Source: Pseudomonas sp. ADAK18 (lineage in GTDB: Bacteria; Pseudomonadota; Gammaproteobacteria; Pseudomonadales; Pseudomonadaceae). From it: DNA of 64,000 nucleotides. A program made the translations under genes and the position numbers. A model generated the notes under the pieces. That model saw only the letters and a program-made list of their open reading frames with translations, did not search any database and was not told the DNA's origin. Positions 9,646 through 30,855 of this stretch are shown here, piece by piece; position 1 is the first letter of the stretch; each line of letters begins with the position of its first letter. Where the stretch lies: NCBI RefSeq assembly GCF_012935695.1, contig NZ_CP052859.1, positions 2,335,001 through 2,399,000 on the forward strand, read 5' to 3'.

Positions 9646-9681
9646 CTCCGGCCCCTTGCACACACCTGCAACGCCAACCGC

Positions 9682-11806: not shown

Positions 11807-12829
11807 TCAAACAGCTTCTACCTGCAACGCCACACGCTCACGGCACGGGCATTCGTCCATATAACGGTGAGCCTCGACGAACTGGCTGAACGGAAACACC
11901 GTCGTCTTCAATGGCACCAGCACCTTGTCAGCGGTCAACTGGTTGATATCACGCAGGGCCCGTTGCAGTGCCACCTGGTCCTGGATAATGCCCAGTTCCG
12001 GCTTGCCGGTGAAGTTGCCGATGCAGTGTACAAAGAACTGAATGTTCTTCTGGAACGCGGCACAGGCCGGGAACGGCGTCTGATTGCCGCCTTGCAAGCC
12101 ATAAAGCACCAGGCTGCCACGGGGAGCCAGAACATCCCCCAATAGCGACATCTGCGGGCCACCCAAGCCATCGAACACCACATCGACGCCACGGTTGTCG
12201 GTGAACTTGTTGATCTGCATCAGCAAATCCTGTTCTTCCGTGACAATCACCTTCTCTGCGCCCAGGGACAGCAGGTATTCACGCTCATCAGCCGTCTTGG
12301 TCGCGGCAATCACCCGCACACCCAGGGCTTTGCCCAGTTGCACAAACGAAGGGCCGGCGCAGTGGCTGGCGTCCGTCACCAGGGCAAATTGCCCAGGTTT
12401 GACCCGCGCCAGGTCGATATAGGCAAAGTAGGCAATCAGCAACGGTGTGTAGTGCACGCTGGCCTGCACCGGGCTCAAGACATCCGGATAACGGGTCAGG
12501 GCCGAACGGGGCAGGACGATCTGTTCGCCATACACCGGGTAGTCATTGGGGCTCTCGGCCGGAAAGCTGGCGACCTTGTCACCCACCGCCAAGTCGTCGA
12601 CACCCTCGCCGACGGCAACCACCACACCGGCCATTTCATGGCCCAGGCCTGACGGAAGACGTGCATGGGACGACGCCAGGTTCTGGCGCCAGAGAATGTC
12701 GTACCAGCTGATGCCAATCGCTTCGACACGCACCTGCACTTCGCCCGGTGCGGGCTTTGCGGCTGCATGCTCTTCGCATTTGAGCACCTCGGCCGGACCA
12801 AACTTGTGAAAACGGATCGTGCGGGACAT
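11807..12829 (-). CDS. mexS: MexS-like quinone oxidoreductase / MDR alcohol dehydrogenase
   Basis: A 340-residue medium-chain dehydrogenase/reductase. The N-terminal GroES-like domain includes GLGHEMAGVVVAVGEGVDDLAV, and the NAD(P)-binding domain includes VTDASHCAGPSFVQLGKALG and GVDVVFDGLGG. The opening MSRTIRFHKFGPAEVLK and the divergent pairing with a MexT-type LysR gene match MexS (PA2491 of P. aeruginosa), thought to detoxify an electrophilic metabolite. Loss of MexS there switches on MexT and the MexEF-OprN pump. The start at 12829 is preceded by GAGG six bases upstream; an upstream in-frame ATG at 12862 is less likely. Confidence 0.87.
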   Translation of the reverse strand: MSRTIRFHKFGPAEVLKCEEHAAAKPAPGEVQVRVEAIGISWYDILWRQNLASSHARLPSGLGHEMAGVVVAVGEGVDDLAVGDKVASFPAESPNDYPVYGEQIVLPRSALTRYPDVLSPVQASVHYTPLLIAYFAYIDLARVKPGQFALVTDASHCAGPSFVQLGKALGVRVIAATKTADEREYLLSLGAEKVIVTEEQDLLMQINKFTDNRGVDVVFDGLGGPQMSLLGDVLAPRGSLVLYGLQGGNQTPFPACAAFQKNIQFFVHCIGNFTGKPELGIIQDQVALQRALRDINQLTADKVLVPLKTTVFPFSQFVEAHRYMDECPCRERVALQVEAV

Positions 12830-13076
12830 CGCAAACCTCGTCAAAGTAACCTCTAATGCCACGAACTTTATCTGGGCTTTGGGAGCAAGACCATCGGTCG
12901 CCGTTAATAGTCGACATGCCTGTCATTGATTCCGCAGATGAGGAAAGCAGCTCCATCCACGTAGGAAATCTCAATTAGCCGGTGCAGAGTAGCAGTCTTT
13001 CCCCGTAAGATTCATGCCGGCCATTGTTCTCATGTGGCTGCTCTCGTCAAGTTTGCTGACTCTTCCAGGACACAAG

Positions 13077-13991
13077 ATGAACCGTAACGACCTACGTCGT
13101 GTCGACCTTAACCTGTTGATCGTATTCGAAACCTTGATGCATGAGCGCAGTGTGACTCGCGCCGCCGAGAAGCTATTCCTCGGCCAGCCGGCCATCAGCG
13201 CCGCCTTGTCACGCCTGCGCGGACTGTTCGATGACCCCTTATTCGTGCGTACCGGCCGCAGCATGGAGCCCTCGGCCCGGGCCGTAGAAATCTTCGCCCT
13301 GCTCTCCCCGGCCCTGGATTCGATCTCCACGGCGGTCAGCCGTGCCTCCGAGTTCGACCCGGCCACCAGCACTGCGGTGTTTCGCATTGGCTTGTCCGAC
13401 GATGTCGAATTCGCGTTGCTGCCGCAGTTGCTCAAGCGCCTGCGGGCCGAGGCCCCGGGAATCGTGCTGGTGGTACGCCGCGTCAACTACATCTTGATGC
13501 CAGGCCTGCTGGCCTCCGGGGAAATTTCCATCGGCGTCAGCTACACCACCGACCTGCCGGCCAACGCCAAGCGCAAGGTACTGCGGCGCAGTGTGCCCAA
13601 GCTGCTGCGGGCCGACAGCGTGCCGGGTGCGTTGAGCCTGGATGATTTTTGCGCTCGCCCCCACGCCCTGGTGTCATTCGCTGGAGACTTGAGCGGGTTT
13701 ATCGATGAGGAACTGGAAAAGCTCGACCGCAAGCGCCACGTGGTGCTGGCCGTGCCGCAGTTCAACGGGTTGGGCACGCTGCTGGCGGGCACGGACATCC
13801 TGGCCACCGTGCCAGACTATGCCTCCGAAGCGTTGACCGCTGCCGGTGGCCTGCGCGCGGAAGACCTGCCATTGCCAACACGCTCTTTTGAGCTGCACAT
13901 GGCGTGGCGCGGGTCGCAGGATAATGATCCGGGGGAACGTTGGTTGAGATCGCGGATTCAGATGTTCTTTGGCGATCCGGACAGCCTGTAA
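13077..13991 (+). CDS. mexT: MexT-like LysR-type activator
   Basis: A 304-residue LysR regulator opening MNRNDLRRVDLNLLIVFETL, with the helix-turn-helix in VTRAAEKLFLGQPAISAALSR, and effector-domain segments GEISIGVSYTTDLPANAKR and NDPGERWLRSRI. These agree with my recollection of MexT of P. aeruginosa, the activator of mexEF-oprN and mexS. AGGA lies six bases before the ATG at 13077. It is divergent from mexS but is separated from mexE by a second RND pump and a two-component system, about 8.9 kb in all. No frameshift or deletion, common in P. aeruginosa mexT, is visible: the frame is intact. Confidence 0.87.
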   Translation: MNRNDLRRVDLNLLIVFETLMHERSVTRAAEKLFLGQPAISAALSRLRGLFDDPLFVRTGRSMEPSARAVEIFALLSPALDSISTAVSRASEFDPATSTAVFRIGLSDDVEFALLPQLLKRLRAEAPGIVLVVRRVNYILMPGLLASGEISIGVSYTTDLPANAKRKVLRRSVPKLLRADSVPGALSLDDFCARPHALVSFAGDLSGFIDEELEKLDRKRHVVLAVPQFNGLGTLLAGTDILATVPDYASEALTAAGGLRAEDLPLPTRSFELHMAWRGSQDNDPGERWLRSRIQMFFGDPDSL

Positions 13992-13995
13992 ACCG

Positions 13996-14025
13996 GCAAG
14001 AGCTACCGACACCGGCAGCTCTTGC
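13996..14025. terminator. Hairpin between convergent mexT and RND gene
   Basis: GCAAGAGCT and AGCTCTTGC form a perfect nine-base stem with a 12-base loop in the 75-base gap between convergent genes. There is no run of T on either side, so it is at most a weak or factor-assisted terminator. Confidence 0.5.
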
Positions 14026-14066
14026 GCTTGGAGTTGCAAGTACTCCTTGAAAAAGTAATCACGTTG

Positions 14067-17000
14067 CTACCGAAGTGACTCAGCCAGTATCGCTGCTGAA
14101 TCTGCAACCTTGCGCCGCCGACGTTCGAACCATAGATACACCACGGGTGTGGTGTAGAGCGTGAGGATCTGCGACACCGCCAACCCGCCGACAATCGCGA
14201 TACCCAGCGGCTGACGCAATTCGGAGCCGGCGCCGTGACCAAAGGCCAGTGGCAGCGCTCCCAGCAACGCTGCCAACGAGGTCATCAGGATCGGGCGCAG
14301 CCGCAACAGGCAACCTTCACGCACCGCCTCACGGGGTGACAAGCCCCGCTGCTGCGCCTGCAAGGTGAAGTCGACGATCATGATCGCGTTTTTCTTGACG
14401 ATGCCGATCAGCAGGATGATGCCGATCATGCCCAGCACCGAAAGGTCCTGGCCGCACAGGATCAAGGCGAGCAAGGCGCCAAAGCCGGCTGACGGTAACG
14501 TCGAGATGATCGTCAGGGGATGAATCGCGTTTTCGTAGAGCACGCCAAGCACGATGTACACCGTCAGGATCGCCGCGAGAATCAGCCACGGTTGCGACTT
14601 CAACGAATCCTGGAAGGCCTGGGCGGTGCCCTGGAAACTGCCGACCACCGTGTCCGGCATGGCCACCGCCAATTTTGCCTGATCGATGGCATCCACTGCC
14701 GCACTCAAGGCCTGGCCGGGCGCCAGGTCGAACGACAGGGTAATTGCCGGGAACACCCCCTGGTGGTTGATGATGATGGGCACCTGCTCGGTCTGCACCT
14801 TCGCAAGCAGGCTCAACGGCACCAGGCTACCGGAACTGGCACGCACGAACAGATGCTCAAGGGTGGCCGTGGAGGTCTGCCAGCTGGGGTCGAGTTCGAG
14901 AATCACGTGATTCTGGTCCAGCTGGGTGAACATCGTCGCGATCTGGCGCTGGCCGAAGGCGTCATACAGCACATCGTCGATGGCTTGCACCGTCACCCCC
15001 AGCCGCGCAGCGGTCGGACGATCAATCACCAGCGTCGACTGGGCAATCGCCTGTTGCTGGTCGGAGGTCACGTGTTGCAATTGCGCCAAGGTCTTGAGCT
15101 TGTCCAGCAACACCCCGCTCCAGTGGTCCAGTTCGAGACTGTCGGGGTCCTGCAAGGTGTATTGGTACTGGGTCTTGCTGGCCCGGCCGCCAATCTGGAT
15201 GTCCTGGTTGGCCTGCATGAATACCTTGACCCCGGACAACGCATCCAGCGCCGGTTGCAAGCGGCGGATCACCTCACCAGCGCTGGCGGTACGCTCGCTG
15301 AACGGCTTGAGGTTGATCATCACCTTGCCTTGGCTGACGGTCGGGTTGGGGCCGATCCAGAAATACACGCGGGCCACTGCCGGGTCCTGGCCGATGACTT
15401 CAGCGGCGCGATTGACCTGGGCACGCATGGCAATCGGTGAGATGTCCGGCGCCGCTTCCGCCACGCCCTGGATCAAGCCATTGTCCTGCTGTGGGAAGAA
15501 GCCCTTGGGAATTTCCACGTACAACACTGCGGTGGCGGCCAAGGTGGCGATCGCCACCGCCAACGTCAGCCGCTGATGATCGAGTACCCAATCGAGGCTG
15601 CGCCGGTAGCCGTCATGCAAGCGACTGAAGACGCGCTCGCAGGCCTGGGCGAAGCGCCCTTCTTCATGCTCGGCATGGGGTTTGAGCAGCCAGGCGCAGA
15701 GCATCGGGGTGATGGTCAGCGAAACGATGCACGACATGATGATCGCCACACTGACGGTCACCGCGAACTCGCGCATCAGGCGTCCGACAATCCCCGACAT
15801 CAACAGGATCGGCAGGAACACCGCAATCAACGACACCGTCATCGACACAATGGTGAAGGCCACCTCGCGCAGGCCATCGACCGCCGATTGCAGCCGCGAC
15901 TTGCCCATCTCCAGGTGGCGCACGATGTTTTCCATGACCACGATGGCGTCATCCACCACAAAGCCGACGGCAATCGCCAGGCCCATGATCGACAAGTTGT
16001 CGAGGCTATAGCCCAACAAGTACATCGCCCCGAAAGTCGCCACCAGCGACAGCGGAATGGTCAGGCTGGGAATCAGCGTGGCGGTGGCTTTGCGAAGGAA
16101 CACGAAGATCACCACGACCACCAGGGCGATGGACAGCAGCAAAGTGAACTGCATGTCATTGACTGAGGCTTCGATGGTTTGGGTGCGGTCGCCGACCACT
16201 TGCACCTGCACGTCCCGAGGCAAGGAGGCGGTGAGTTCCGGCAGCTTGGCCTTGATCGTGGCGATGGTCGACAGCAGGTTGAAGCCCGGCTGTTTGTGGA
16301 TGTCGACGATCACCGTGGGCTCGGCCCCCAGTTGCGCGGCTTGCTGGGTGTCTTCGGCACCGGCAATCACCCGGCCGAGATCGCCCAGCTTGATCGGCAT
16401 GCCACTTTTATAGGCGATGACCTGATCACGGTAGTGCTGGGGATCGAGCAACTGGTCGGTGGCGCCCAAGGTAATCGAACGGCTCTGCCCGTCCAGGCTG
16501 CCCTTGGGCTGATCGAGGGTGCTGACGCCGATCACGTTGCGCACGTCCTCCAGGGTCAGGCCGCGGGCAGCCAGTGCATCCGGGTCGATCTGCACGCGCA
16601 CCGCAGGTTTTTGTTCGCCGTGAAAATCCACCAGGCCGACGCCCGGCATTTGCGACAGACGCTGGGCGATGTAGTTGTCGGCGTAGCGATCCAGCTCCGG
16701 CAACGTGCGGGTGGGCGATGTCAGCGCCAGGGACAACACAGTGCCTTCGGCCGGGTTGACCTTGTTGAAGGTCGGCGCGCTGGACATGGTTTTGGGCAGG
16801 TTGGGCGTAGCGGTGTTGATCGCCGTTTGCACGTCCTGGGCAGCGCCGTCGATGTCCCGATTGAGATCGAATTGCAAGACAACTTGGGTTTTCCCTGCCG
16901 CACTCGACGAGGTCATCGAGGTGACTTGCGGTACGGCGGCAAACGCCCGCTCCAGGGGCGTGGCCACTGAGGACGCCATGGTCTCGGCGCTCGCGCCGGA

Positions 17001-17153
17001 CAACTTGGCGGTGACTTGAATGGTCGGAAAATCCACCGTCGGCAATGGCGCCACCGGCAGTTGAAAATAGGCAAACGCGCCCAGCAACATGATGCCGACT
17101 GCCAACAGGCTAAGGCCGACACGGCGCTGAATCAGTCCGGCAAGGCCGTTCAT
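14067..17153 (-). CDS. RND multidrug efflux permease (MdtC-like)
   Basis: A 1028-residue inner-membrane proton/drug antiporter of the HAE1 RND family. The N terminus (MNGLAGLIQRRVGLSLLAVG) starts the first membrane helix, two large periplasmic loops follow, and the proton relay residues are visible as the Asp pair in GFVVDDAIVVMEN (TM4) and Lys in GIVKKNAIMIVDF (TM10). Sequence style is that of MdtB/MdtC rather than MexB or MexF, but only one such permease is encoded. It is the last gene of an OMF-MFP-RND unit; its ATG overlaps the MFP stop by four bases, implying translational coupling. Substrates cannot be inferred. Confidence 0.93.
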   Translation of the reverse strand: MNGLAGLIQRRVGLSLLAVGIMLLGAFAYFQLPVAPLPTVDFPTIQVTAKLSGASAETMASSVATPLERAFAAVPQVTSMTSSSAAGKTQVVLQFDLNRDIDGAAQDVQTAINTATPNLPKTMSSAPTFNKVNPAEGTVLSLALTSPTRTLPELDRYADNYIAQRLSQMPGVGLVDFHGEQKPAVRVQIDPDALAARGLTLEDVRNVIGVSTLDQPKGSLDGQSRSITLGATDQLLDPQHYRDQVIAYKSGMPIKLGDLGRVIAGAEDTQQAAQLGAEPTVIVDIHKQPGFNLLSTIATIKAKLPELTASLPRDVQVQVVGDRTQTIEASVNDMQFTLLLSIALVVVVIFVFLRKATATLIPSLTIPLSLVATFGAMYLLGYSLDNLSIMGLAIAVGFVVDDAIVVMENIVRHLEMGKSRLQSAVDGLREVAFTIVSMTVSLIAVFLPILLMSGIVGRLMREFAVTVSVAIIMSCIVSLTITPMLCAWLLKPHAEHEEGRFAQACERVFSRLHDGYRRSLDWVLDHQRLTLAVAIATLAATAVLYVEIPKGFFPQQDNGLIQGVAEAAPDISPIAMRAQVNRAAEVIGQDPAVARVYFWIGPNPTVSQGKVMINLKPFSERTASAGEVIRRLQPALDALSGVKVFMQANQDIQIGGRASKTQYQYTLQDPDSLELDHWSGVLLDKLKTLAQLQHVTSDQQQAIAQSTLVIDRPTAARLGVTVQAIDDVLYDAFGQRQIATMFTQLDQNHVILELDPSWQTSTATLEHLFVRASSGSLVPLSLLAKVQTEQVPIIINHQGVFPAITLSFDLAPGQALSAAVDAIDQAKLAVAMPDTVVGSFQGTAQAFQDSLKSQPWLILAAILTVYIVLGVLYENAIHPLTIISTLPSAGFGALLALILCGQDLSVLGMIGIILLIGIVKKNAIMIVDFTLQAQQRGLSPREAVREGCLLRLRPILMTSLAALLGALPLAFGHGAGSELRQPLGIAIVGGLAVSQILTLYTTPVVYLWFERRRRKVADSAAILAESLR

Positions 17154-18316
17154 TGATTAACCTCCACTAGATCCGCTGTGGTATCGGTCTTGACCGGCAT
17201 CACCTTCACCCCCGGCGCTACCCGCGACTGCCCTTGCACCACCACGGTTTCTCCGGCCGCCAGGCCCTGGCGAATCCACTGTTTGCCGTCAACTACGCTG
17301 CCCGCGTCCACCAAGCGCGGCTGCACCCGCTGATCCGCACCGACCACATAGACAAAGTTACCCTGGCGGCCGAATTGCACCGCTTCGGCCGGCACCACAG
17401 TGACGTCCTGGCGGGTTTGCACCAGCAACCGGGCGCTGACCAACTCGCCGGGCCACAGTTGGCCGGTGGCATTATCGAACTGCGCCTTGAGCTGAATCTG
17501 GCCGCTGGCGGCGGTGACCTGGCTGTCGATAAAGCTCAAGGCACCCTTGGCGATTTCCTGACGACCGTCGCGGGTCATCGCCACCACCTGCAAGGCGCCT
17601 TTGGCGTTTTCTTCGAGGATTTGCGGCAGATCGTCCTGGGAGACCGCAAACGCCACGGAGATCGGATTCATCTGGGTAATGGTCACCAGCCCGGTGGCTT
17701 CAGCACCATGGGCAATGGCGCCCACATCCAGTAAACGCTGGCCGGTGCGCCCGGTGAGCGGTGCCTTGACCTGGGTGAATTCCAGTTGCAGGCGTGCCGT
17801 GTCCAGCGCGGCCTGATCGGCCTGCACCGCGGCTTGTTGCGCGGCCAGTTGTGCACGAAAGGTATCGACGTCCTGGGTCGGGCCGGCCTTGGCGGCGGCC
17901 AGTTTACTCGCCCGATCAAGGTTGACCCGCAGGTTGGCCAGTTGCGCCTGATCCTTGGCCACCAGTGCCTGAGCCTGAGCGACTTGCGCCTGATAAACCC
18001 GTGGGTCAATCACCGCCAGCAGACTGCCGGCGGCGACGGTTTGGCCCTCGTTGAACAGGACCTTTTGCAGCTCCCCATCCACCCTCACCCGCACATTGAC
18101 GCTGTTAAGCGGCTGCACATTGCCGATGGCGCTGATCCAGATCGGCAGGTCCTGGCGGCTGACGGGTGACATCTGCACCGGCACCGCGCCGGCCTCGGTT
18201 TTCAGTGGCGCCGCCTGGGCATGCCTGATCCATTGAAATCCGCTGATGGCCGCTACCAGCGACAACACCACCAGCGTTCCGAGCGCAAGACGATGACGAG
18301 GGTGTAAAACATTCAT
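17150..18316 (-). CDS. Periplasmic adaptor (MFP) of RND pump, MdtA-like
   Basis: A 388-residue membrane-fusion protein. An N-terminal hydrophobic segment (LVVLSLVAAISGF, residues about 15-27) anchors or exports it, followed by a lipoyl half-motif (VDGELQKVLFNEGQTV), a coiled-coil hairpin rich in Ala, Gln and Asp (VAQAQALVAKDQAQLANL), the second lipoyl half (FTQVKAPLTGRTG), and beta-barrel and membrane-proximal domains (RQDVTVVPAEAVQFG). It links the permease and outer-membrane channel. The start overlaps the upstream OMF stop and its stop overlaps the permease start, so the three genes are tightly coupled. Confidence 0.93.
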   Translation of the reverse strand: MNVLHPRHRLALGTLVVLSLVAAISGFQWIRHAQAAPLKTEAGAVPVQMSPVSRQDLPIWISAIGNVQPLNSVNVRVRVDGELQKVLFNEGQTVAAGSLLAVIDPRVYQAQVAQAQALVAKDQAQLANLRVNLDRASKLAAAKAGPTQDVDTFRAQLAAQQAAVQADQAALDTARLQLEFTQVKAPLTGRTGQRLLDVGAIAHGAEATGLVTITQMNPISVAFAVSQDDLPQILEENAKGALQVVAMTRDGRQEIAKGALSFIDSQVTAASGQIQLKAQFDNATGQLWPGELVSARLLVQTRQDVTVVPAEAVQFGRQGNFVYVVGADQRVQPRLVDAGSVVDGKQWIRQGLAAGETVVVQGQSRVAPGVKVMPVKTDTTADLVEVNQ

Positions 18317-19716
18317 GGTTGAGCCACCTGAGCAGAAGAGTTGGAGGCGATGGCAGCGGCGGAAAAGTCCCCGCCCAAGGCTCGAAAAAGACCGACGGAG
18401 GCCTGTAAATGCTGGAGCCGTACCTGAAGCAACGCGTCTTCGGCCTGGTATTGAGTGCGTTCGACGATCAGCAAGGTCTGGAAATCGGTGGAACCCAAGC
18501 GGTAGCGCACCTGCGCCAGGCGCGCAGCTTCTCGGGCCGAGTCCACTGCTGCCTGGTTCAAGGCATAGCTCTTGTCCAGTTCACTGGCGGCACTGAGTTG
18601 GGTTTCGACGTCTTGCAGGGCCTCGATGATCGACTCGCGGTAACTGGCCGTCAGTTCCTGCACATGAGCCAGGTCAAAATGCAGCTGGCCCTTGAGTTGA
18701 CCACCGGCGAACAGCGGCTGGCTGAGGGTGCCGATGGCGCTCCAGATCTGGCCACCGGCGAGCGTATCGATGCCGCCCAGCAGGTCCAGGGACAGGTTGG
18801 GCAGAAACGCGGCGCGGGCCACACCGACATCAAAGTTGGCCGACTGCAAACGGGCTTCGGCGGCTTGAATGTCCGGGCGCTGACGCAGCAAGCCAATGGG
18901 CAACCCGGTGGCTGGCTGCGGTACTTGCAGGTCTTTGAGGCCGTCGCCGTGCAGATGAAAACCCTCAGGTGGCGCGCCCACCAGCACGGCCAGTTGATAC
19001 AGCGCCTGATCACGTTGCTGGCGCAGGGGCGGCATGGCCGCTTCAAAGGTTTGCATGGCATTGCGCTGTTGGGCGACCTCCAGGTTGGAGACCGCGCCCT
19101 GGCTGGCCTGGATTTGCACCAGTTCGAGCACTTGGCGCGCATCATCGGCAATCGACTGGGCCAGGCGCAGGCGCTCTTCCAGCGACAGCACCTGGAAGTA
19201 ACTGTCGGCGATGCTCGCGCCTAATGTCATGCGCAAGGTGCCGGCATCAAACACGCTGGCATGGGCCAAGGCATCGGCTGAGTCAGCGGCGGCCCGCTGT
19301 TTACCCCAGAAATCCAGCTCGTAGGTGGCCTCGGCAAACACGCTGCGTTTTTGTGTGGTGCCATAGTTGTTCTGGCGTTGGAAGTTGCCGCCCAGATTCA
19401 GTGCCGGGTATTGCGCGGCGCCCACCACCTGGGCTGACGAACGCGCCTCGTCGATGCGACTGACCGCCGCCTTCAAGGTGTAGTTGGCCGTCAGGCCGCG
19501 GGCGATCAATTGATCCAGTTCGGCGCTATGGAACTCGCGCCACCACTGCCCACCTGCGACCGCTCCGGCGCCCTGCCCGGCGTCCCACTGGGCCGCCAGG
19601 GGAATTTCAGGCGGTTTATAGTCAGGCACCATTGAACAGCCGCTGAGCATCAGCAGCCCAAGGGCAATCAAAGTAATGGAGGTTGGGCGCATCGAGCGCC
19701 CGGTTGCAACTGACAT
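18313..19716 (-). CDS. Outer-membrane efflux lipoprotein (OprM/NodT family)
   Basis: A 467-residue TolC-like outer-membrane factor. After a signal sequence it has the lipobox LMLSGCSMVPDY, so it should be lipidated at Cys. Two OEP repeats follow, with characteristic segments EATYELDFWGKQRAA, RQRPDIQAAEARLQSAN and YRLGSTDFQTLLIVERTQ. It is the first gene of the OMF-MFP-RND unit; having the channel gene first is a less usual order than MFP-RND-OMF. Start chosen at 19716 (GGGAG about ten bases upstream); an ATG at 19692 would also retain the signal peptide. A response regulator lies 103 bases upstream in the same direction. Confidence 0.92.
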   Translation of the reverse strand: MSVATGRSMRPTSITLIALGLLMLSGCSMVPDYKPPEIPLAAQWDAGQGAGAVAGGQWWREFHSAELDQLIARGLTANYTLKAAVSRIDEARSSAQVVGAAQYPALNLGGNFQRQNNYGTTQKRSVFAEATYELDFWGKQRAAADSADALAHASVFDAGTLRMTLGASIADSYFQVLSLEERLRLAQSIADDARQVLELVQIQASQGAVSNLEVAQQRNAMQTFEAAMPPLRQQRDQALYQLAVLVGAPPEGFHLHGDGLKDLQVPQPATGLPIGLLRQRPDIQAAEARLQSANFDVGVARAAFLPNLSLDLLGGIDTLAGGQIWSAIGTLSQPLFAGGQLKGQLHFDLAHVQELTASYRESIIEALQDVETQLSAASELDKSYALNQAAVDSAREAARLAQVRYRLGSTDFQTLLIVERTQYQAEDALLQVRLQHLQASVGLFRALGGDFSAAAIASNSSAQVAQP

Positions 19717-19819
19717 GGGCAAGCTGTCTCCCGCTTGAGCCGCTGTGGACAGGTCCACGAATGCGCCAAAGATAGCGAGAGGTGCCTGGCAGAGCGTTCG
19801 CCGGCAGATAAACTTTTGT

Positions 19820-20509: not shown

Positions 20510-20624
20510 AGAGGCGCCTCCAACAAAAACTAAACTTTAATTTATCCTGCGGGAACGTGGCACCGCAGTAGGCTTTGCCACACTATGCCATCTCTGCCCC
20601 GAAGACGTGACCGGTTCCCTTGCC

Positions 20625-21317
20625 ATGACCCATGTTCTGGTCGTCGAAGACGACTTAGCCACTGCCCGCGAAATAGAAGCCGCCCTGTGTGACCACGGCT
20701 TCACCGTCACCCTTGCCGACAACGGCCGCGATGGCCTGTTGAAAGCCTTGAGCGAACCGTTCGACCTGATCGTGCTTGACCGCATGCTGCCGGGCGGCGT
20801 CGATGGCCTGGGCGTGCTCACCGCCTTGCGGGCCGCAGGCACCGCGACACCGGTGCTGATTCTCAGCGCCTTGAGCGCCCTCGACGAGCGAGTCCGTGGC
20901 CTGCGTGCCGGTGGCGATGACTACCTGACCAAACCCTTTGAATTCATCGAATTGACCGCCCGCCTCGATGCCTTGAGCCGGCGCCGCGCCGAGCCGTCGG
21001 CACCTGTCCAGGAGACTCGGCTACGGGTCGGCAACCTGGAAATCGACTTGTTGCGCCGCACGGTGCGCCGTGGCGAACGCATTGTTGACCTGGTGCCCCG
21101 GGAATACGCGCTGCTCGAACACCTGATGCGTAATGCCGGGCAAGTCATCACCCGCACCATGCTGTTTGAAGCCGTGTGGAACTACAGCTACGACGAGCGC
21201 ACCAACGTCATCGAAGTCCACATCGGCCGCTTGCGGCGCAAGATCGATGGCGAAGGCGATGGGCAGATGATCCACACCGTGCGGGGAGCCGGCTATGTCC
21301 TCCGTTCGCCTGAGTGA
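20625..21317 (+). CDS. OmpR-family response regulator (partner of downstream kinase)
   Basis: A 230-residue OmpR/PhoB-type regulator. The receiver has ED-D at 8-10, phospho-acceptor Asp52 (IVLDRMLPG) and Lys in DDYLTKPFEF; the DNA-binding domain includes VPREYALLEHLMRNAGQVITR and ends TVRGAGYVL. The ATG at 20625 begins the canonical MTHVLVVEDD; a GTG at 20607 would add six residues. The kinase gene overlaps its end by 23 bases. It is divergent from the other response regulator across 115 bases that contain the AT-rich run CTAAACTTTAATTTATCC, a possible shared binding region. Confidence 0.93.
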   Translation: MTHVLVVEDDLATAREIEAALCDHGFTVTLADNGRDGLLKALSEPFDLIVLDRMLPGGVDGLGVLTALRAAGTATPVLILSALSALDERVRGLRAGGDDYLTKPFEFIELTARLDALSRRRAEPSAPVQETRLRVGNLEIDLLRRTVRRGERIVDLVPREYALLEHLMRNAGQVITRTMLFEAVWNYSYDERTNVIEVHIGRLRRKIDGEGDGQMIHTVRGAGYVLRSPE

Positions 21318-22653
21318 AATACCGCGCACCATCAGTTTCCGCACCGGATTGCTGTTTCTCGGGCTATTCGGCTGCTCGTTCCTGGCCTTGTTCGGCTACA
21401 TCTATTGGCAGACCGCGTTTTACCTCAAAGGCGAAGCCGACGCCGCGCTCTACCAACAAGTGGAGAACCGCAGCGCACAAGCGCCCGAGGTTCAGTTGCA
21501 GGAAATCCGCAACCATGCGGTGCAAGACGTCGAAGGTCGCTTGCCCCATAGCCTGTTCGATGCGCAAGGAAAGTACATTGCCGGGGTGATCCGTGAATTG
21601 CCTGACTTTGCGACCTACGACAAACCCCAGGAGTTTCGCTGGCTCAAGAGCAGCGGCCACCACCGCCCCGTGCGGTTCATCGCGCACCGCTTGGCAGACG
21701 GCAGGATCCTGCTGGTCGCCCAGGACATGCACGATATTCGCGAGTTCGACGAACTGCTGATCAATGCGCTGATTTCCGGCGGTGTGCTGTTGCTGGTAGT
21801 CGGCCTGATCGGTGCGGTGGTGCTGGGGTTTTCCGCCCACCGGCGTCTGGACAAGGTCAGTCGCTCCATCAAGGGCATCATTGAAGGCGACTTGACCGGC
21901 CGGCTGCCGATCCAAGGCAATAACGACGACATCGACCGTCTCGCCTCGGTGGTCAACGGCATGCTCGACGAACTGGAGCGCCTGATGAGCGAGGTCAAAG
22001 GCGTCTGCGATGACATCGCCCACGACTTGCGCACCCCGCTGACCCGACTGATCGCCGGCCTGGAGCGCGCCCAACGACGCGGCCTGGACCAGGCGCAATA
22101 TGCCGCCAGCATCGACTCGGCGCTCACCGAAGCCAAGGGCCTGCTGTTGACCTTCAAGGCGCTGCTGCGTATTTCGGAAATCGAAAACAGCGCCCGCCGC
22201 AGTCACTTCGCCCCGGTGGACTTGAACCTGATCGCCGCTGATGCGGCGGAGCTCTACGAGCCGCTGGCCGAAGAGCGCGGCATCCGCCTCACCGTCGACA
22301 ACAGCCAGGCCCCAGCGGTGATGGCCGGTGATCCGCAACTGTTGTTTGATGCACTGTGCAACCTGCTGGATAACGCCATCAAGTTTTCACCGGATCACAG
22401 CCATGTACGCCTGAGCGTCATTGCGGACGGGGCCGTCGTGGGAATTCGCGTGGAGGACAACGGGCCGGGCATCCCTCAAGCCGAACGTGAGGCCGTGCTG
22501 CGCCGGTTGTATCGAGCGGAATCCAGCCGACATACACCGGGCAACGGGCTCGGCTTGAGCATGGTCTCGGCGGTAGCGCGGCTGCATGATATGCAGCTGA
22601 CGGTGAGCGATGCGGCACCGGGGTGTCGAGTCGACCTACTGTGCAAGGAATAA
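21295..22653 (+). CDS. Sensor histidine kinase
   Basis: A 452-residue membrane kinase. TM1 is at about 18-38 and TM2 at about 155-178, enclosing a periplasmic sensor of roughly 115 residues. A HAMP segment (RRLDKVSRSIKGIIEGDLTG) and the H-box DDIAHDLRTPLTRL follow, with the phospho-acceptor near His243. The N box (NLLDNAIKFSP), G1 (VEDNGPGIP) and G2 (NGLGLSMV) are all present. It overlaps the response regulator gene by 23 bases; the start is supported by GGGAG six bases upstream. Its stimulus is unknown; by position it probably governs the neighbouring RND pump, possibly via both response regulators. Confidence 0.93.
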   Translation: MSSVRLSEIPRTISFRTGLLFLGLFGCSFLALFGYIYWQTAFYLKGEADAALYQQVENRSAQAPEVQLQEIRNHAVQDVEGRLPHSLFDAQGKYIAGVIRELPDFATYDKPQEFRWLKSSGHHRPVRFIAHRLADGRILLVAQDMHDIREFDELLINALISGGVLLLVVGLIGAVVLGFSAHRRLDKVSRSIKGIIEGDLTGRLPIQGNNDDIDRLASVVNGMLDELERLMSEVKGVCDDIAHDLRTPLTRLIAGLERAQRRGLDQAQYAASIDSALTEAKGLLLTFKALLRISEIENSARRSHFAPVDLNLIAADAAELYEPLAEERGIRLTVDNSQAPAVMAGDPQLLFDALCNLLDNAIKFSPDHSHVRLSVIADGAVVGIRVEDNGPGIPQAEREAVLRRLYRAESSRHTPGNGLGLSMVSAVARLHDMQLTVSDAAPGCRVDLLCKE

Positions 22654-22710
22654 AGGCCGACTGCACATGCCCGATAATGTTCCTTGCGCCTTCTGCAACA
22701 GTCTTTTGTT

Positions 22711-22788
22711 ATCAGCCATATTGATAGCACCCTAACGAAAGCCCCATCCTAGAGGGCTCGATTCGCGCTTATATCATTCCGAATGATA
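22711..22788 (+). promoter_or_regulatory. Two LysR-type (MexT-like) palindromes upstream of mexE
   Basis: TATCA, seven bases, TGATA at 22711-22727 and a perfect palindrome TATCATTCCGAATGATA at 22772-22788 lie with centres about 60 bases apart, 85-160 bases before the mexE start. The second continues as AGTTACCTT and so partly matches my recollection of the MexT box (ATCA, N5, GTCGAT, N4, ACYAT): ATCA, GAT and ACC-T fit. They are likely MexT sites, which would keep mexEF-oprN under mexT despite the separation. Confidence 0.6.
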
Positions 22789-22872
22789 GTTACCTTTGTT
22801 TCATTCGATTCGTGAGATAGCACCTCGCCGAGCATGATCCGCCCATCTCAAATACATTGGCGGATGCACCTC

Positions 22873-24117
22873 ATGGAACAGTCACTCAAACATTTGCGCT
22901 ATCCCCTGGCCCTCTTGGCCGTGCTGGTGATGAGCGCATGCGGCAAGACCCCTGATCAAGCGGCCGCCATGCCACCGAGCAAAGTGAGCGTGGCAAAAGT
23001 CATTGAACAACCTGTCAACGAGTGGGATGAGTTCACCGGCCGCCTGGAAGCCCCAGAGACCGTACAGATTCGTCCGCGCGTGTCCGGCCAGATCGACCAG
23101 GTAGCCTTCACCGAAGGTGCACTGGTCAAGAAAGGCGACTTGCTGTTCCAGATCGACCCGCGTCCGTTCCAGGCCGAAGTGCGCCGCCTCGAAGCCCAGC
23201 TAGCCCAAACCCGTGCCGCCGCGACCCGCAGCGATAACGAAGCCCAACGCGGCGAACGCCTGCGCCAAAGCAACGCGATCTCTGCCGAACTCGCCGACTC
23301 GCGCACCACCGCTGCCCAGGAAGCCCGCGCCGCTGTTGCCGGGATCCAGGCGCAGTTGGACGTGGCCAAGCTGAACCTGAGCTTCACCCGCGTCACCGCG
23401 CCCATCAGTGGGCGTGTCAGCCGTGCCGACATTACCGCCGGCAACTTGGTGACCGCCGATGTCACGGCGCTGACCAGCGTGGTCTCCACCGACAAGGTCT
23501 ACGCCTACTTCGACGCCGATGAACGCGTGTACCTCAAGTACACCGAACTGGCTCGCCAAGGCCGCCGTGGCGCCACCACGCCGGTGTACCTGGGCCTGTC
23601 CAACGAGGATGGCAACCCGCACCTGGGCCAGATGAACTTCGTCGACAACCAGGTCAACCCAGCCACCGGCACCATCCGTGGTCGCGCCGTGTTCGATAAC
23701 ACTGACGGGCGCTTCACCCCCGGCCTGTATGCACGCCTGAAACTGGTGGGCAGCGGGACCTACTCCGCCGTGCTGATCAACGACGAAGCGGTCGGTACTG
23801 ACCTTGGCAAGAAGTTCGTGCTGGTGATGGATGGCGACAATAAATCGTCGTACCGCGCCGTGGAACTGGGGCCAAAGATCGAAGGTTTGCGCATCGTACG
23901 CAGCGGCCTGAACAAGGACGACACCATTATCGTCAAGGGCCTGCAGCGGGTTCGCCCGGGATCGCCGGTAGCCCCGGAAACCATCCCGATGGCCAGCAAG
24001 GAAACCCTCGCCGCATTGGCACAACAACGACAAGCGCTTGAAGCCAGCAACCTGGAGCAAGTGGCGCCGGATAAAGCCGCGCCCAAGCTCGCCAGTACAG
24101 CGACTCCACGCGGTTAA
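22873..24117 (+). CDS. mexE: MexE, periplasmic adaptor of MexEF-OprN
   Basis: A 414-residue lipoprotein adaptor. The start MEQSLKHLRYPLALLA with lipobox VMSACGK matches MexE of P. aeruginosa as I remember it. Domains in order: lipoyl half (RPRVSGQIDQVAFTEGALV), alpha-hairpin (VRRLEAQLAQTRAAATRS), lipoyl half (FTRVTAPISGRVSRADI), beta-barrel and membrane-proximal domain. The pump exports chloramphenicol, fluoroquinolones, trimethoprim and quorum-sensing precursors in P. aeruginosa. An in-frame ATG at 22834 would add 13 residues before the conserved start and is rejected. mexF begins 15 bases after the stop. Confidence 0.92.
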   Translation: MEQSLKHLRYPLALLAVLVMSACGKTPDQAAAMPPSKVSVAKVIEQPVNEWDEFTGRLEAPETVQIRPRVSGQIDQVAFTEGALVKKGDLLFQIDPRPFQAEVRRLEAQLAQTRAAATRSDNEAQRGERLRQSNAISAELADSRTTAAQEARAAVAGIQAQLDVAKLNLSFTRVTAPISGRVSRADITAGNLVTADVTALTSVVSTDKVYAYFDADERVYLKYTELARQGRRGATTPVYLGLSNEDGNPHLGQMNFVDNQVNPATGTIRGRAVFDNTDGRFTPGLYARLKLVGSGTYSAVLINDEAVGTDLGKKFVLVMDGDNKSSYRAVELGPKIEGLRIVRSGLNKDDTIIVKGLQRVRPGSPVAPETIPMASKETLAALAQQRQALEASNLEQVAPDKAAPKLASTATPRG

Positions 24118-24132
24118 GGGACAACACTCAAG

Positions 24133-27100
24133 ATGAATTTTTCCCAGTTCTTCATTTCACGGCCGATCTTCGCAGCGGTGCTGTCGCTGTTGATCCTGAT
24201 CGCCGGCGCCATTTCGCTGTTCCAGCTACCGATCAGCGAATACCCGGAAGTAGTGCCGCCTACCGTGGTGGTACGCGCCAACTTCCCGGGCGCCAACCCG
24301 AAGGTTATCGGTGAAACCGTTGCCGCTCCCCTGGAGCAAGCCATTACCGGCGTCGAGAACATGCTGTACATGTCCTCGCAGTCGACGGCTGACGGCAAGA
24401 TCACCCTGACCATCACCTTCGCCCTCGGCACCGACCTGGATAACGCCCAGGTGCAGGTACAGAACCGCGTCACCCGGACCCAGCCCAAGCTGCCGGAAGA
24501 AGTGACCCGGATCGGTATCACCGTAGACAAGGCCTCCCCCGACCTGACCATGGTTGTGCACTTGACCTCACCGGACAAGCGCTACGACATGTTGTACCTG
24601 TCCAACTACGCCATCCTCAACATCAAGGATGAACTGGCACGCCTGGGCGGCGTGGGTGACGTGCAATTGTTCGGCATGGGCGACTACTCCCTGCGGGTAT
24701 GGCTGGACCCGAACAAGACCGCTTCACGCAACCTGACCGCCACTGACGTGGTGACCGCAATCCGTGAGCAGAACCGTCAAGTGGCCGCCGGTGCCCTGGG
24801 CGCTCCGCCTGCGCCGAATGCCACCAGCTTCCAATTGTCGGTCAACACTCAAGGCCGCCTGGTCACTGAGGAAGAGTTCGAAAACATCATTATCCGCGCA
24901 GGCGATAACGGTGAGATCACCCGCCTGAAAGACATCGCACGGGTAGAACTGGGCTCCAGCCAGTATGCCTTGCGTTCGTTGCTCAATAACCAACCGGCGG
25001 TGGCGATCCCGATCTTCCAGCGTCCGGGTTCCAACGCCATTGAGATCTCCAATGAAGTGCGCGCCAAGATGGCGGAGCTCAAGAAGAGTTTCCCTGAAGG
25101 CATGGATTTCAGCATCGTCTATGACCCGACCATCTTCGTGCGTGGCTCCATCGAGGCGGTGGTTCACACCCTGTTCGAAGCACTGATCCTGGTGGTGCTG
25201 GTGGTGATCCTGTTCCTGCAAACCTGGCGCGCCTCGATCATCCCGTTGGTGGCGGTGCCGGTATCGCTGATCGGTACCTTTGCGGTCATGCACCTGTTTG
25301 GCTTCTCCCTCAACGCCCTGTCGCTGTTCGGGCTGGTATTGGCCATCGGTATCGTGGTGGACGACGCCATCGTGGTGGTGGAGAACGTCGAGCGAAACAT
25401 CGAGCTGGGCCTGCAACCGTTCGAGGCCACTAAAAAGGCCATGAGCGAAGTGACCGGCCCGATCATTGCCACGGCGCTGGTGCTGTGTGCGGTGTTTATT
25501 CCGGCGGCCTTCATCAGCGGCTTGACTGGGCAGTTCTACAAACAGTTCGCCTTGACCATTGCCATTTCGACAGTGATCTCGGCCTTCAACTCGCTGACCT
25601 TGTCCCCTGCCCTGGCCGCTGTGTTACTGCGCAGCCATGACGCGCCGAAGGATCGCTTCTCGAAAATCCTCGACGGGATCTTTGGTGCCTGGTTGTTCCG
25701 CCCGTTCAACCGCTTCTTCGATAAAGCCAGTCATGGTTACGTCGGTACCGTACGCCGGGTAATTCGCGGCAGCGGCATCGCGCTGTTCCTGTACGCAGGC
25801 CTGATGGTGCTGACCTGGTTCGGTTTTGCCCACACCCCGACCGGTTTCGTGCCGGCCCAGGACAAGCAATACCTGGTGGCCTTCGCTCAATTGCCGGACG
25901 CCGCGAGCCTGGACCGCACCGAAGACGTGATCAAGCGCATGTCTGACATCGCCCTGAAACAGCCGGGCGTGGAAAGCGCCGTAGCGTTCCCGGGCTTGTC
26001 GATCAACGGTTTCACCAACAGCCCCAACAGCGGCATCGTCTTTGTGACCTTGAAGCCGTTCGACGAACGTAAAGGTGCGGGCATGTCGGCCGGGGCGATT
26101 GCCGGCGCACTGAATGGCAAGTACAGCGACATCCAGGAAGCCTACATGGCGATCTTCCCTCCGCCGCCGGTACAGGGCCTGGGCACCATTGGCGGGTTCC
26201 GCCTGCAAGTTGAAGACCGTGGCAACCTGGGTTACGACGAGCTGTACAAAGAAGTGCAGAACATCATCACCAAGAGCCGCACCGTGCCGGAACTGGCCGG
26301 GTTGTTCACCAGCTACACGGTCAACGTGCCGCAGGTCGATGCCGCTATCGACCGGGAAAAGGCCAAGACCCACGGCGTGGCGATCAGCGACATCTTCGAC
26401 ACCCTGCAGATTTACCTGGGTTCGCTGTATGCCAACGACTTCAACCGCTTCGGTCGTACCTATCAGGTCAACGTGCAGGCTGAGCAACAATTCCGCCTGG
26501 ATTCCGAGCAGATTGGCCAGTTGAAAGTGCGCAACAACAAAGGCGAGATGATCCCGCTGGCGACCTTTATCAAGGTCAGCGACACCTCGGGCCCGGACCG
26601 CGTGATGCACTACAACGGCTTCATTACCGCCGAGATCAACGGTAACGCGGCACCGGGCTACAGCTCCGGCCAGGCGCAGATTGCCATCGAGAAACTGCTC
26701 AAAGACGAGCTGCCCAACGGCATGACCTACGAGTGGACCGACCTGACCTATCAGCAAATCCTCTCGGGCAATACCGCGCTGTTCGTGTTCCCGCTCTGCG
26801 TACTGCTGGCGTTCCTGGTACTGGCCGCCCAATACGAAAGCTGGAGCCTGCCACTGGCGGTGATCCTGATCGTACCGATGACCCTGCTGTCGGCCATCAC
26901 CGGGGTGATTCTCTCCGGCGGCGACAACAACATCTTTACCCAGATCGGCTTGATCGTACTGGTGGGGCTTGCCTGTAAGAACGCGATTCTGATTGTCGAG
27001 TTTGCCAAGGACAAACAGCAGGAAGGTCTCGATCCGCTCGCCGCGGTACTGGAAGCCTGCCGTCTGCGTCTGCGGCCGATCCTGATGACCTCGTTCGCTT

Positions 27101-27312
27101 TCATCATGGGCGTGGTGCCTCTGGTGTTCTCCAGCGGTGCCGGTGCCGAGATGCGTCATGCCATGGGCGTGGCGGTGTTCTCCGGGATGATCGGGGTGAC
27201 CTTCTTTGGTCTGCTGCTGACGCCAGTGTTCTACGTACTGATCCGTCGTTTCGTCGAGCGCGGCGAAGCCCGCAAAGCGACCAAGGCCTTGACGCTGGAG
27301 ACACAGCAATGA
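24133..27312 (+). CDS. mexF: MexF, RND permease of MexEF-OprN
   Basis: A 1059-residue HAE1-family RND transporter, close to the usual MexF length of 1062. It opens MNFSQFFISRPIFAAVLSLL and has the proton relay Asp pair in GIVVDDAIVVVENVERN (TM4) and Lys in GLACKNAILIVEFAKD (TM10), with two periplasmic porter/funnel loops. It takes up drugs from the periplasm and inner membrane and works with MexE and OprN. The gene lies 15 bases after mexE and overlaps oprN by four bases. The 569-codon frame on the opposite strand is a shadow. Confidence 0.94.
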   Translation: MNFSQFFISRPIFAAVLSLLILIAGAISLFQLPISEYPEVVPPTVVVRANFPGANPKVIGETVAAPLEQAITGVENMLYMSSQSTADGKITLTITFALGTDLDNAQVQVQNRVTRTQPKLPEEVTRIGITVDKASPDLTMVVHLTSPDKRYDMLYLSNYAILNIKDELARLGGVGDVQLFGMGDYSLRVWLDPNKTASRNLTATDVVTAIREQNRQVAAGALGAPPAPNATSFQLSVNTQGRLVTEEEFENIIIRAGDNGEITRLKDIARVELGSSQYALRSLLNNQPAVAIPIFQRPGSNAIEISNEVRAKMAELKKSFPEGMDFSIVYDPTIFVRGSIEAVVHTLFEALILVVLVVILFLQTWRASIIPLVAVPVSLIGTFAVMHLFGFSLNALSLFGLVLAIGIVVDDAIVVVENVERNIELGLQPFEATKKAMSEVTGPIIATALVLCAVFIPAAFISGLTGQFYKQFALTIAISTVISAFNSLTLSPALAAVLLRSHDAPKDRFSKILDGIFGAWLFRPFNRFFDKASHGYVGTVRRVIRGSGIALFLYAGLMVLTWFGFAHTPTGFVPAQDKQYLVAFAQLPDAASLDRTEDVIKRMSDIALKQPGVESAVAFPGLSINGFTNSPNSGIVFVTLKPFDERKGAGMSAGAIAGALNGKYSDIQEAYMAIFPPPPVQGLGTIGGFRLQVEDRGNLGYDELYKEVQNIITKSRTVPELAGLFTSYTVNVPQVDAAIDREKAKTHGVAISDIFDTLQIYLGSLYANDFNRFGRTYQVNVQAEQQFRLDSEQIGQLKVRNNKGEMIPLATFIKVSDTSGPDRVMHYNGFITAEINGNAAPGYSSGQAQIAIEKLLKDELPNGMTYEWTDLTYQQILSGNTALFVFPLCVLLAFLVLAAQYESWSLPLAVILIVPMTLLSAITGVILSGGDNNIFTQIGLIVLVGLACKNAILIVEFAKDKQQEGLDPLAAVLEACRLRLRPILMTSFAFIMGVVPLVFSSGAGAEMRHAMGVAVFSGMIGVTFFGLLLTPVFYVLIRRFVERGEARKATKALTLETQQ

Positions 27313-28724
27313 GCGTGAAAGTGTTCCTGCCAAGCCTACTGGTACTGGCGCTGAGCGCCTGTGCCGTGGGCCCGGACTATAAAACCCAAACCCCGGAGGC
27401 AGCCAATATCACGGCCGCCGCCGACGCCAAACAGTATGACCATGCAAAGTTCGAAGGCATCTGGTGGCAGCAGTTCGACGACCCAACCCTCAACCAGTTG
27501 GTGACGCAATCCCTGCAAGGCAACCGTGACCTGCGCGTAGCGTTTGCCCGCCTGCGGGCCGCACGAGCGATCCGTGATGACGCCGCCAATGACGTCATGC
27601 CAGTGATCACCAGCCGTGTCAGCAGCGATGTGGGTAAAGGCCAGATCCCTGGCCAGACCACCAAACGCGTCAACAGTGAGCGTTACGACCTGGGCCTCGA
27701 TATGGCCTGGGAAGTGGACTTGTTCGGCCGCATTCGCCGTAACCTGGAAGCCAGTGACGCTGACCAAGAGGCCGCCGAAGCGGACCTCTATCAACTGCAA
27801 GTCACCATGATTGCCGAGTTGGTGGACGCTTACGGTCAACTGCGGGGTGCGCAACTGCGCGAGAAAATCGCCGTGGCTAACCTGAAGAACCAGGAAGATT
27901 CGCGCGGCATTACCGTCAGCCTGCGGGATGCCGGTGTCGGCGATCAGCTTGACGTGGAGCGTGCCGACGCGCGCCTGGCGGCGGTAGAAGCCAGCGTGCC
28001 GCAACTGCAGGCCGAAGAAGTGCGCGAGCGTAACCGCATCGCCACCCTCCTCGGCCAGCGCCCGGACAAATTGACCGTGGACCTGAGCCCGAAAGACCTG
28101 CCGGCGATTGCCAAGGCCTTGCCGATTGGTGATCCGGGGCAACTGCTGCAACGTCGCCCGGACATTCTCAGCGCCGAACGCAAACTGGCCGCTGCCACCG
28201 CGCGGATCGGCGTGGCCAAGGCCGACCTGTTTCCACGGGTCAGCCTCAGCGGCTTCCTCGGCTTTACCGCCGGGCGTGGCTCGCAGATCGGTTCGGCCGC
28301 CGCCAATGCCTGGTCCCTGGGCCCGAGCATTACCTGGGCTGCATTTGACCTGGGCAGCGTGCGGGCGCGTTTGCGTGGCGCCGATGCTGAAGCCGATGGC
28401 GCCCTGGCGACCTACGAGCAGCAAGTATTGCTGGCTCTGGAAGAGTCGGAGAATGCGTTCAGTGATTACGGCAAACGCCAACAGCGCCTGGTCTCGCTGA
28501 TTCGTCAGAGTGAGTCCAGCCGCGCCGCTGCGGACCTGGCCGAGATTCGCTACCGCGAAGGCACCGTGGACTTCCTGGTGCTGCTGGACGCTCAGCGTGA
28601 GCGCTTGGCGGCCGAGGATTCCCAGGCCCAGGCCGAAGTGGATCTGTATCGCGGCATTGTTGCGATCTACAAGGCGTTAGGTGGTGGTTGGCAGCCGGAC
28701 ACCACGGTGGCCAGCGCAAAGTAA
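27309..28724 (+). CDS. oprN: OprN, outer-membrane channel of MexEF-OprN
   Basis: A 471-residue TolC-like lipoprotein (P. aeruginosa OprN is 472). The signal peptide ends with lipobox LALSACAVGPDYK. OEP repeats include DMAWEVDLFGRIRRNLEAS, LLQRRPDILSAERKLAAAT and YREGTVDFLVLLDAQRERL. It is the third gene of the operon, its ATG overlapping the mexF stop. Two consecutive hairpin-plus-T terminators follow within 80 bases. Confidence 0.94.
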   Translation: MSVKVFLPSLLVLALSACAVGPDYKTQTPEAANITAAADAKQYDHAKFEGIWWQQFDDPTLNQLVTQSLQGNRDLRVAFARLRAARAIRDDAANDVMPVITSRVSSDVGKGQIPGQTTKRVNSERYDLGLDMAWEVDLFGRIRRNLEASDADQEAAEADLYQLQVTMIAELVDAYGQLRGAQLREKIAVANLKNQEDSRGITVSLRDAGVGDQLDVERADARLAAVEASVPQLQAEEVRERNRIATLLGQRPDKLTVDLSPKDLPAIAKALPIGDPGQLLQRRPDILSAERKLAAATARIGVAKADLFPRVSLSGFLGFTAGRGSQIGSAAANAWSLGPSITWAAFDLGSVRARLRGADAEADGALATYEQQVLLALEESENAFSDYGKRQQRLVSLIRQSESSRAAADLAEIRYREGTVDFLVLLDAQRERLAAEDSQAQAEVDLYRGIVAIYKALGGGWQPDTTVASAK

Positions 28725-29828: not shown

Positions 29829-29937
29829 GACGTGTGAGGTAACCCGGTTGTGCTGGAGATGTCGGCCATCATAGTGGGCGCAACGCCTCACCACCACCGT
29901 TCAGCCGCCGTTCAGTAAACGTCAATAATAGCTGTTT

Positions 29938-29956
29938 AGTAATGAGTATCATTATG
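29938..29956 (+). promoter_or_regulatory. Fur box upstream of efeU
   Basis: AGTAATGAGTATCATTATG matches the 19-base Fur consensus (GATAATGATAATCATTATC) at 14 positions and contains a perfect TAATGA-GTA-TCATTA palindrome. It ends 40 bases before the efeU start, as expected for iron repression. Confidence 0.8.
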
Positions 29957-29996
29957 TTACAAATTAGCATCCTATCTAATTACGATTCGGTGCCGA

Positions 29997-30845: not shown

Positions 30846-30855
30846 GGACCGTCTC

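Follow-up and report, generated by a model that had tools for sequence, protein, structure and literature searches.

Why does a second efflux pump lie between mexT, the gene for a drug-pump activator of the LysR family, and mexEF-oprN, its target operon? We asked this of a 64,000-nucleotide stretch of the Pseudomonas sp. ADAK18 chromosome (RefSeq contig NZ_CP052859.1, positions 2,335,001 to 2,399,000 of the forward strand). We refer to this whole stretch as the window and give coordinates within it. In P. aeruginosa, the mexS, mexT and mexEF-oprN genes are reported to be adjacent (PMC7697342 and PMC11432991, in the available portions of both). In the window, an 8.6-kb module that encodes a pump and its regulators sits between mexT and the mexE promoter. 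We think it quite probable that this module lies within what is left of a genomic island whose integration site was the 3' end of mexT, and that this site is used across the genus.

The mexT-mexE junction across the genus

We compared 149 genomes of the genus, including the window's own, and 80 named loci that were found by their MexT (two of these loci are from one genome). mexT and mexE are on the same contig in 102 of the 149 genomes and on different contigs in 31; in the other 16, mexE had no match at the limit used. In the 102 genomes, mexE is downstream of mexT on the same strand (86 genomes), upstream on the same strand (3 genomes), or on the opposite strand (13 genomes). The gap in the 86 measurable genomes ranges from 129 bp to 217 kb. 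It is at most 450 bp in 17 genomes, whose sites we call empty, and 0.46 to 217 kb in the 69 that we call separated (3 kb or less in 15, 3-10 kb in 12, 10-30 kb in 15, 30-140 kb in 24, and more than 140 kb in 3). The window is in the 3-10 kb class, with a gap of 8,887 bp by this genome-wide measure. The sampled genomes with the closest MexT (96-97%) and a measurable gap all have larger gaps, and the named locus L018 (MexT 97%) has a shorter one of 7.9 kb. Among the named loci, mexE is inside the fetched flank in 30 of 80 and outside it in 50, although three of those flanks are under 10 kb.

The contents of the gaps are mostly different: of the 471 open reading frames called in the gaps of the named loci, 326 are singletons at a threshold of 50% identity. 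On the other side of mexT, a mexS ortholog is divergent from mexT at a distance of 167-286 bp in all 80 named loci, and the up1-mexS spacing is 424-1187 bp in all 77 where it could be measured. Because these mexS-side gaps are constant and the 3' side of oprN varies rather little within clades among the fetched loci (with exceptions), the mexT-mexE junction is the fluid point of the locus. Adjacency of mexT and mexE (0.13-0.35 kb) is likely the ancestral state, with separation derived.

An earlier note on this DNA, made from the sequence alone, had presented the separation as remarkable and had called for a synteny comparison. The window's gene order was not found in most relatives. It is the window's cargo that is peculiar; separation itself is frequent in the genus and has been published, as the part of PMC11432991 that was available states that most Pseudomonas species have mexT far from the pump genes.

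Extra copies of the mexT end and an integrase family

We searched the 149 genomes for a degenerate 26-mer that encodes MFFGDP[DE]SL, with up to 2 mismatches. Two or more matches were found in 37 genomes, one in 109, and none in 3. The reversed pattern, our control, matched once across all 149 genomes. Among the matches listed, all 31 extra copies on mexT's contig are downstream of mexT and on its strand. For 14 genomes, mexE is also downstream on this contig, and there all 18 copies fall in the interval from mexT to mexE. Of the 69 separated genomes, 18 have an extra copy, versus none of the 17 empty genomes (p = 0.018). Two or three extra copies were seen in each of several genomes, as stacking of islands would predict. 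The putative island end GTCAAA is found 5' of 21 of 33 copies among the matches listed (some genomes are counted twice).

A family of tyrosine integrases is found close behind mexT or such a copy. In seven named loci, the integrase starts 114-145 bp past the last sense codon of mexT; the one that we scanned, from L053, has Arm-DNA-binding and catalytic domains. Whole or fragmentary, the integrase is present in 11 of the 80 named loci, with fragments near mexT in four. An earlier look in seven integrase-bearing named genomes had found one extra match to the mexT end, in P. nabeulensis, which encodes MFFGDPDSL and then a stop codon. Across the 149 genomes, a search for the family at an E value of 1e-60 or better gave 16 matches in 15 genomes. 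All 16 start 94-387 bp after either mexT (14) or an extra copy (2); an in-frame stop interrupts three of them, and several are incomplete. We did not find a phage or plasmid source for the integrase, as every matching record was below 60% identity (about 28-32% among the matches listed).

Three genomes also have what may be the other product of integration. In G002, G021 and G128, a reciprocal end of the form [ML]FF[GA]DPDSLA-stop lies 395 bp, 349 bp and 271 bp before mexE, respectively. These distances from the last copy to mexE resemble the mexT-mexE distance of empty genomes, and in G021 the sequence 3' of the reciprocal tail resembles the native empty-site sequence of locus L070. Thus, the relatives show both an integrase adjacent to its target and, in these three genomes, a duplicated site with the target rebuilt, as with islands at gene 3' ends. 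Given the oriented tail copies, the integrases beside mexT or its copies, and the three reciprocal ends, mexT most likely has at its 3' end an attachment site (attB) where genomic islands dock.

We also considered repetitive extragenic palindromic (REP) elements as the cause of separation. REP-like motifs are found in 9 of 18 short gaps versus 15% of random 260-bp stretches, but the oriented tail copies would be left unexplained, so we regard them as a minor factor.

In IMG/VR, a single viral contig (L295, IMGVR_UViG_3300021197_001243) exactly matches the pattern of island end plus mexT tail.

The locus in ADAK18 and the tail of MexT

The features of the locus in the window are as follows (+ and - give the strand).

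11807..12862, -: mexS, quinone-oxidoreductase-like of the zinc type, with ADH domains; MexS ortholog by family and synteny
13077..13991, +: mexT, LysR activator of 304 amino acids, with LysR domains; a longer frame opens at 13014
13962..13987, +: proposed attachment site, 26 bp encoding MFFGDPDSL at the 3' end of mexT, which ends SL-stop
13996..14025, no strand: hairpin between the convergent ends of mexT and RND2; from its fold, possibly a bidirectional terminator
14067..17153, -: RND2, HAE1-type permease of the resistance-nodulation-division (RND) kind, with ACR_tran; own single-permease lineage near MdtB and MdtC
17150..18316, -: MFP2, periplasmic adaptor (membrane fusion protein); RND_mfp above cut-off
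18313..19758, -: OMF2, outer-membrane channel (outer membrane factor); outer_NodT above cut-off, OEP; lipobox-like N-terminus
19820..20509, -: RR2, OmpR-type response regulator at the head of the pump genes; Response_reg and Trans_reg_C
20510..20606, no strand: divergent promoter region of RR2 and RR1, with CTAAACTTT-like and CACACTATGCC-like conserved blocks in the alignment of 18 cassettes
20607..21317, +: RR1, OmpR-type response regulator by domain match
21295..22653, +: HK1, sensor histidine kinase; HATPase_c and HisKA; phospho-acceptor motif IAHDLRTPL
22684..22833 (approximate limits), +: mexE promoter block, kept at every gap size in 46 aligned loci
22711..22725, +: MexT (nod) box I, a match to ATYAN7YGAT; exact in 33 of 46 loci
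22773..22787, +: MexT (nod) box II, a palindrome that matches ATYAN7YGAT; exact in 46 of 46 loci
22834..24117, +: mexE, NCBIfam MexE equivalog; alternative start at 22876
24133..27312, +: mexF, RND_permease_1 at 1526 bits
27309..28724, +: oprN, OEP

All of these frames are open, and the earlier note's account of MexS- and MexT-like genes, a second regulated RND pump and then mexEF-oprN is accurate. The gap that it put at about 8.9 kb measures 8,845 bp from the last sense codon of mexT to the aligned start of mexE. The six genes of the module (RND2 to HK1) fill this gap, and open reading frame calling found no further gene in it. The LysR protein is indeed MexT: it matches the solved MexT regulatory domain (PDB 6l33) at E = 5e-114, while the next LysR match in PDB is at 1e-43. 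MexE passes the NCBIfam equivalog cut-off (759 versus 714 bits). For MexS, the matches listed from a protein search had only generic names (dehydrogenase or reductase), so its identification as the MexS ortholog rests on synteny and family. We take PFLU tags to be those of strain SBW25. PFLU_3160 and PFLU_3161 have been named as the orthologs of mexS and mexT (PMC13430274, in the portion available).

The C-terminal tail of MexT differs between empty and other sites. At the 17 empty loci, mexT ends DSLA-stop in 14 and is extended otherwise in 3; none ends SL-stop. At non-empty loci, SL-stop is found in 57 of 64: in 48 of the 50 with mexE out of reach and in 9 of the 14 with a gap of 0.4-10 kb, including the window, whose mexT ends DSL-stop. 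(Fisher p = 3e-12, uncorrected for kinship.) At one locus, L168 (G034), the mexT frame is altered near the C-terminus.

Integration would replace the final nine or so codons of mexT by a version that the element carries. As this version would code for the same or nearly the same residues, MexT would stay whole while mexEF-oprN is pushed away by the island, and repeated integration would stack islands between mexT and mexE. Only 57 bp separate the HK1 stop from the first MexT box downstream, and the native spacer of empty genomes is thus missing from the window. Because the SL-stop tail is present, yet the integrase, the second site and the native spacer were not found, we read the window as an eroded occupied site, with the pump module as its surviving content. 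The missing parts were presumably removed by deletion, and the module may have arrived on the island or later.

Several observations weigh against this reading. In the window's genome, we did not find a match to the integrase family at 1e-60, and in the window, we did not find a second copy of the site at up to 4 mismatches (the single copy is at 13962). The window's sequence 3' of mexT matches neither of the two common types of island end, although 28 other SL-stop loci also have sequence of this "other" kind (29 of 57 with the window). No copy of the site was found at any of 19 loci elsewhere that carry the module, so the module was not seen as cargo of such an island. The tail association is confounded by kinship, and three of the 64 non-empty loci end SLA-stop and four end otherwise. 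More broadly, 51 of the 69 separated same-strand genomes have no recognizable second copy, which leaves erosion or other events to account for most separations. In G051, G144, G024, G104 and G119, where mexE has another place on the contig, the extra copies follow mexT but do not lie between the two genes, and the integrase fragment at L059 is in the opposite orientation. As for the promoter, only 33 of the 46 loci have an exact box I, and the box pattern ATYAN7YGAT is not rare (9 in the window versus 4.05 expected).

A broader proposal is that the mexT end serves throughout the genus as the attachment site of a dedicated island family, that these islands donate the last codons of MexT and repeatedly cut the activator off from its pump operon, that pumps, antibiotic clusters and phage-defense systems settle in the slot thus opened beside the regulator and can join the MexT regulon, and that the module is one of these settlers. 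We would give this proposal as a whole an even chance.

The second pump module

We counted occurrences of the module in 398 genomes by permease identity of at least 75%. The permease was found in 20 genomes, including the window's, and the next match drops to 52% identity. Of the 19 other cassette loci, 17 have the six genes in the same order (one of these has 2.4 kb between RR2 and OMF2) and 2 are interrupted by contig ends. Neither mexT nor mexE was found in the stretches fetched around the 19 cassettes, and in all 19 genomes, mexS-mexT is on another contig or far off. Homology among the cassettes spans at most 14102-22648 of the window: it ends at the outer coding ends (the stops of RND2 and HK1) and the flanks differ. 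The RR2/RR1 promoter region is kept in 18 cassettes, including the window's. Since the gene order recurs elsewhere, homology stops at the coding ends, and the promoter region is the module's own, the module is, by these comparisons, a portable unit with its own regulators, and in this sample it is beside mexT only in the window's genome.

There is no clear signal of recent horizontal transfer of the module: nucleotide identity between the window's cassette and its five nearest relatives is 79-87% by gene, similar to the 78-88% for mexS-mexT of the same genomes.

The earlier note had described the permease as MdtC-like. In a tree of 24 permeases, RND2 belongs to a separate clade (stem support 1.0) beside the MdtB and MdtC clades, and the placement relative to those two clades is weakly resolved. 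RND2 is also below the equivalog cut-offs for MdtB (1158 of 1584 bits) and MdtC (1170.8 of 1774 bits), so it is not an MdtC ortholog. The module has one permease gene, rather than a tandem pair as in MdtABC or MuxABC. RND2 retains the DD and K motifs of the proton relay, and the phospho-acceptor motif of HK1 is intact. RR1 and RR2 are 48% identical to each other.

Did the module enter by another route?

The strongest alternative is that the module entered the gap by itself, by a route that had nothing to do with the mexT site, with an earlier island already lost in this lineage. This is a serious possibility that falls somewhat short of an even chance. The unshared flanks of the cassettes and the 19 cassette loci without a site copy are what it would predict. 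However, erosion of an island would likewise leave a module that ends at its coding ends, and we saw no mark of an independent insertion: the longest direct repeat between the two edges of the window's insert is 9 bp, and the gap has no further gene.

Another alternative is that the junction is merely one spot in a generally fluid chromosome, where unrelated insertions and deletions separated mexT from mexE by chance and no site-specific process was involved. Diverse cargo, the 51 of 69 separated genomes in which a second copy was not recognized, and REP-like motifs that could invite other recombination would all fit. Against it stand the constant gaps on the mexS side, the fairly stable 3' flank of oprN within clades, the strict orientation of the listed same-contig copies, and the location of all 16 integrase matches at the site. 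We consider this explanation unlikely.

Regulation of the two pumps

The mexE promoter block is recognizable in all 46 aligned loci (some are from the same genome), whatever the size of the gap. We scanned five intergenic stretches for MexT boxes at up to one mismatch. Boxes were found only 5' of mexE, and none in the RR2-RR1, OMF2-RR2, mexT-RND2 or mexS-mexT stretches. MexT therefore likely acts in trans on mexEF-oprN, via its two retained boxes, and not on the module. Such activation in trans is reported for P. poae, where mexEF-oprN is 300 kb away from mexT (PMC11432991, in the part available). The scan has a caveat: the same portion of that paper reports a MexT box at mexS in P. poae, where our mexS-mexT stretch has none, and states that MexT may not need a box in order to bind DNA.

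Because 18 cassettes share a conserved divergent RR2/RR1 promoter region, the module appears to have its own control, and it is likely run by its own HK1/RR1/RR2 circuit, independent of MexT. This agrees with the earlier note's view of two pumps under different control; the cross-regulation that it thought possible finds no support in the box scan. (The available part of PMC8562477 describes another two-component system, not the window module's, that acts on MexEF-OprN.) That the module was recruited for its function, as a second pump put under MexT control, is very improbable: in P. poae, MexT does activate sacIJ of the sac cluster that adjoins mexT (PMC11432991, in the same portion), but the three stretches within or bordering the module lack a MexT box and the module's promoter region is conserved at other loci.

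The 91-nt stretch around the mexT/RND2 hairpin (13985-14075) has a fold z-score of -3.13.

Cargo of the gaps in relatives

We surveyed 120 proteins from 62 named loci (up to two per locus, those nearest mexT, of 110-899 amino acids). They include 123 Pfam families, of which the integrase and HipA-like families are the largest, with 7 members each. A HipA-like cluster is in the gap at L009, L025, L034, L038, L043, L059, L060, L084, L171 and L172, often as the first gene after mexT. These ten loci, some of which may be from the same genome, otherwise have different cargo. In G002 (L282, 6882-16487), an island bounded by mexT ends carries a complete Wadjet system (JetA, JetB, JetC and JetD), followed by a GajA-like ATPase. 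Near the distal site copy in G002, G072 and G092 (L282, L291 and L279), whose gaps are otherwise unlike, an AbrB-like protein is paired with a protein of 153 or 154 amino acids. We read this pair as a candidate toxin-antitoxin pair.

Comparison with known systems

Genomic islands integrate at the 3' ends of transfer RNA or protein-coding genes via P4-like tyrosine integrases. The putative mexT islands are similar in that the integrase is just inside one end, the gene end is rebuilt, and a copy of the tail is at the far end; several copies can occur in a row, and the cargo includes defense and toxin-antitoxin-like genes. The difference is that the target encodes a drug-pump activator and is directly upstream of that activator's own target operon. 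We found no paper in which mexT's 3' end is described as an attachment site, in literature that mostly excluded subscription journals. As a target for this known kind of integration, mexT would be new, and it would add a regulatory twist.

AdeRS-AdeABC is an RND operon with a divergent two-component pair. The module likewise has a divergent response regulator and kinase beside its pump genes, but these are headed by a second response regulator without a kinase of its own. The permease clades nearest to RND2 are those of MdtABC and MuxABC (44-50% identity to tree members); the module differs in having a single permease, in a clade of its own, and in having the outer-membrane channel gene first.

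The window shares with P. aeruginosa the MexS-MexT regulator pair, the MexEF-OprN pump and the two MexT boxes at mexE, but has 8.85 kb and a second pump between mexT and mexE. In P. poae PMA22, a safracin cluster that is partly controlled by MexT adjoins mexT (PMC11432991, in the portion available). As in the window, cargo is directly beside mexT, the MexT boxes are kept, and mexEF-oprN is separated. The cargo is different, with some of it under MexT control, and the available portion of that paper gives no mechanism of integration.

Integration at mexT would offer a concrete cause for why mexT is beside mexEF-oprN in P. aeruginosa and far off in most other Pseudomonas. The order of genes around a resistance regulator has been remade, most likely by mobile elements, with the regulator and its target promoter unbroken. 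The C-terminal tail of MexT could serve as a simple sequence read-out of likely use of the site, and the mexT end would give a defined address for cargo hunting, with the Wadjet island and the published safracin cluster as examples.

Neighboring genes and other observations

Beside mexS (8242-11103) are two adjoining genes of 473 codons each. One encodes a MocR-type regulator (GntR plus aminotransferase) and the other matches no Pfam family at the limit used; in most named loci, both genes are found along with mexS-mexT. On the 3' side of oprN (28812-32058) are an AraC-type regulator and an iron-uptake pair (FTR1 plus imelysin/cupredoxin), and this flank is common to most of the near relatives that were fetched. 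The window's genome, a single contig of 6.47 Mb, has 19 RND permease matches above the family cut-off. P. frederiksbergensis 36C6 has two mexS-mexT loci (L079 and L080) with the same neighbors, 1.1 Mb apart on one joined contig, which may be a duplication or an assembly artifact.

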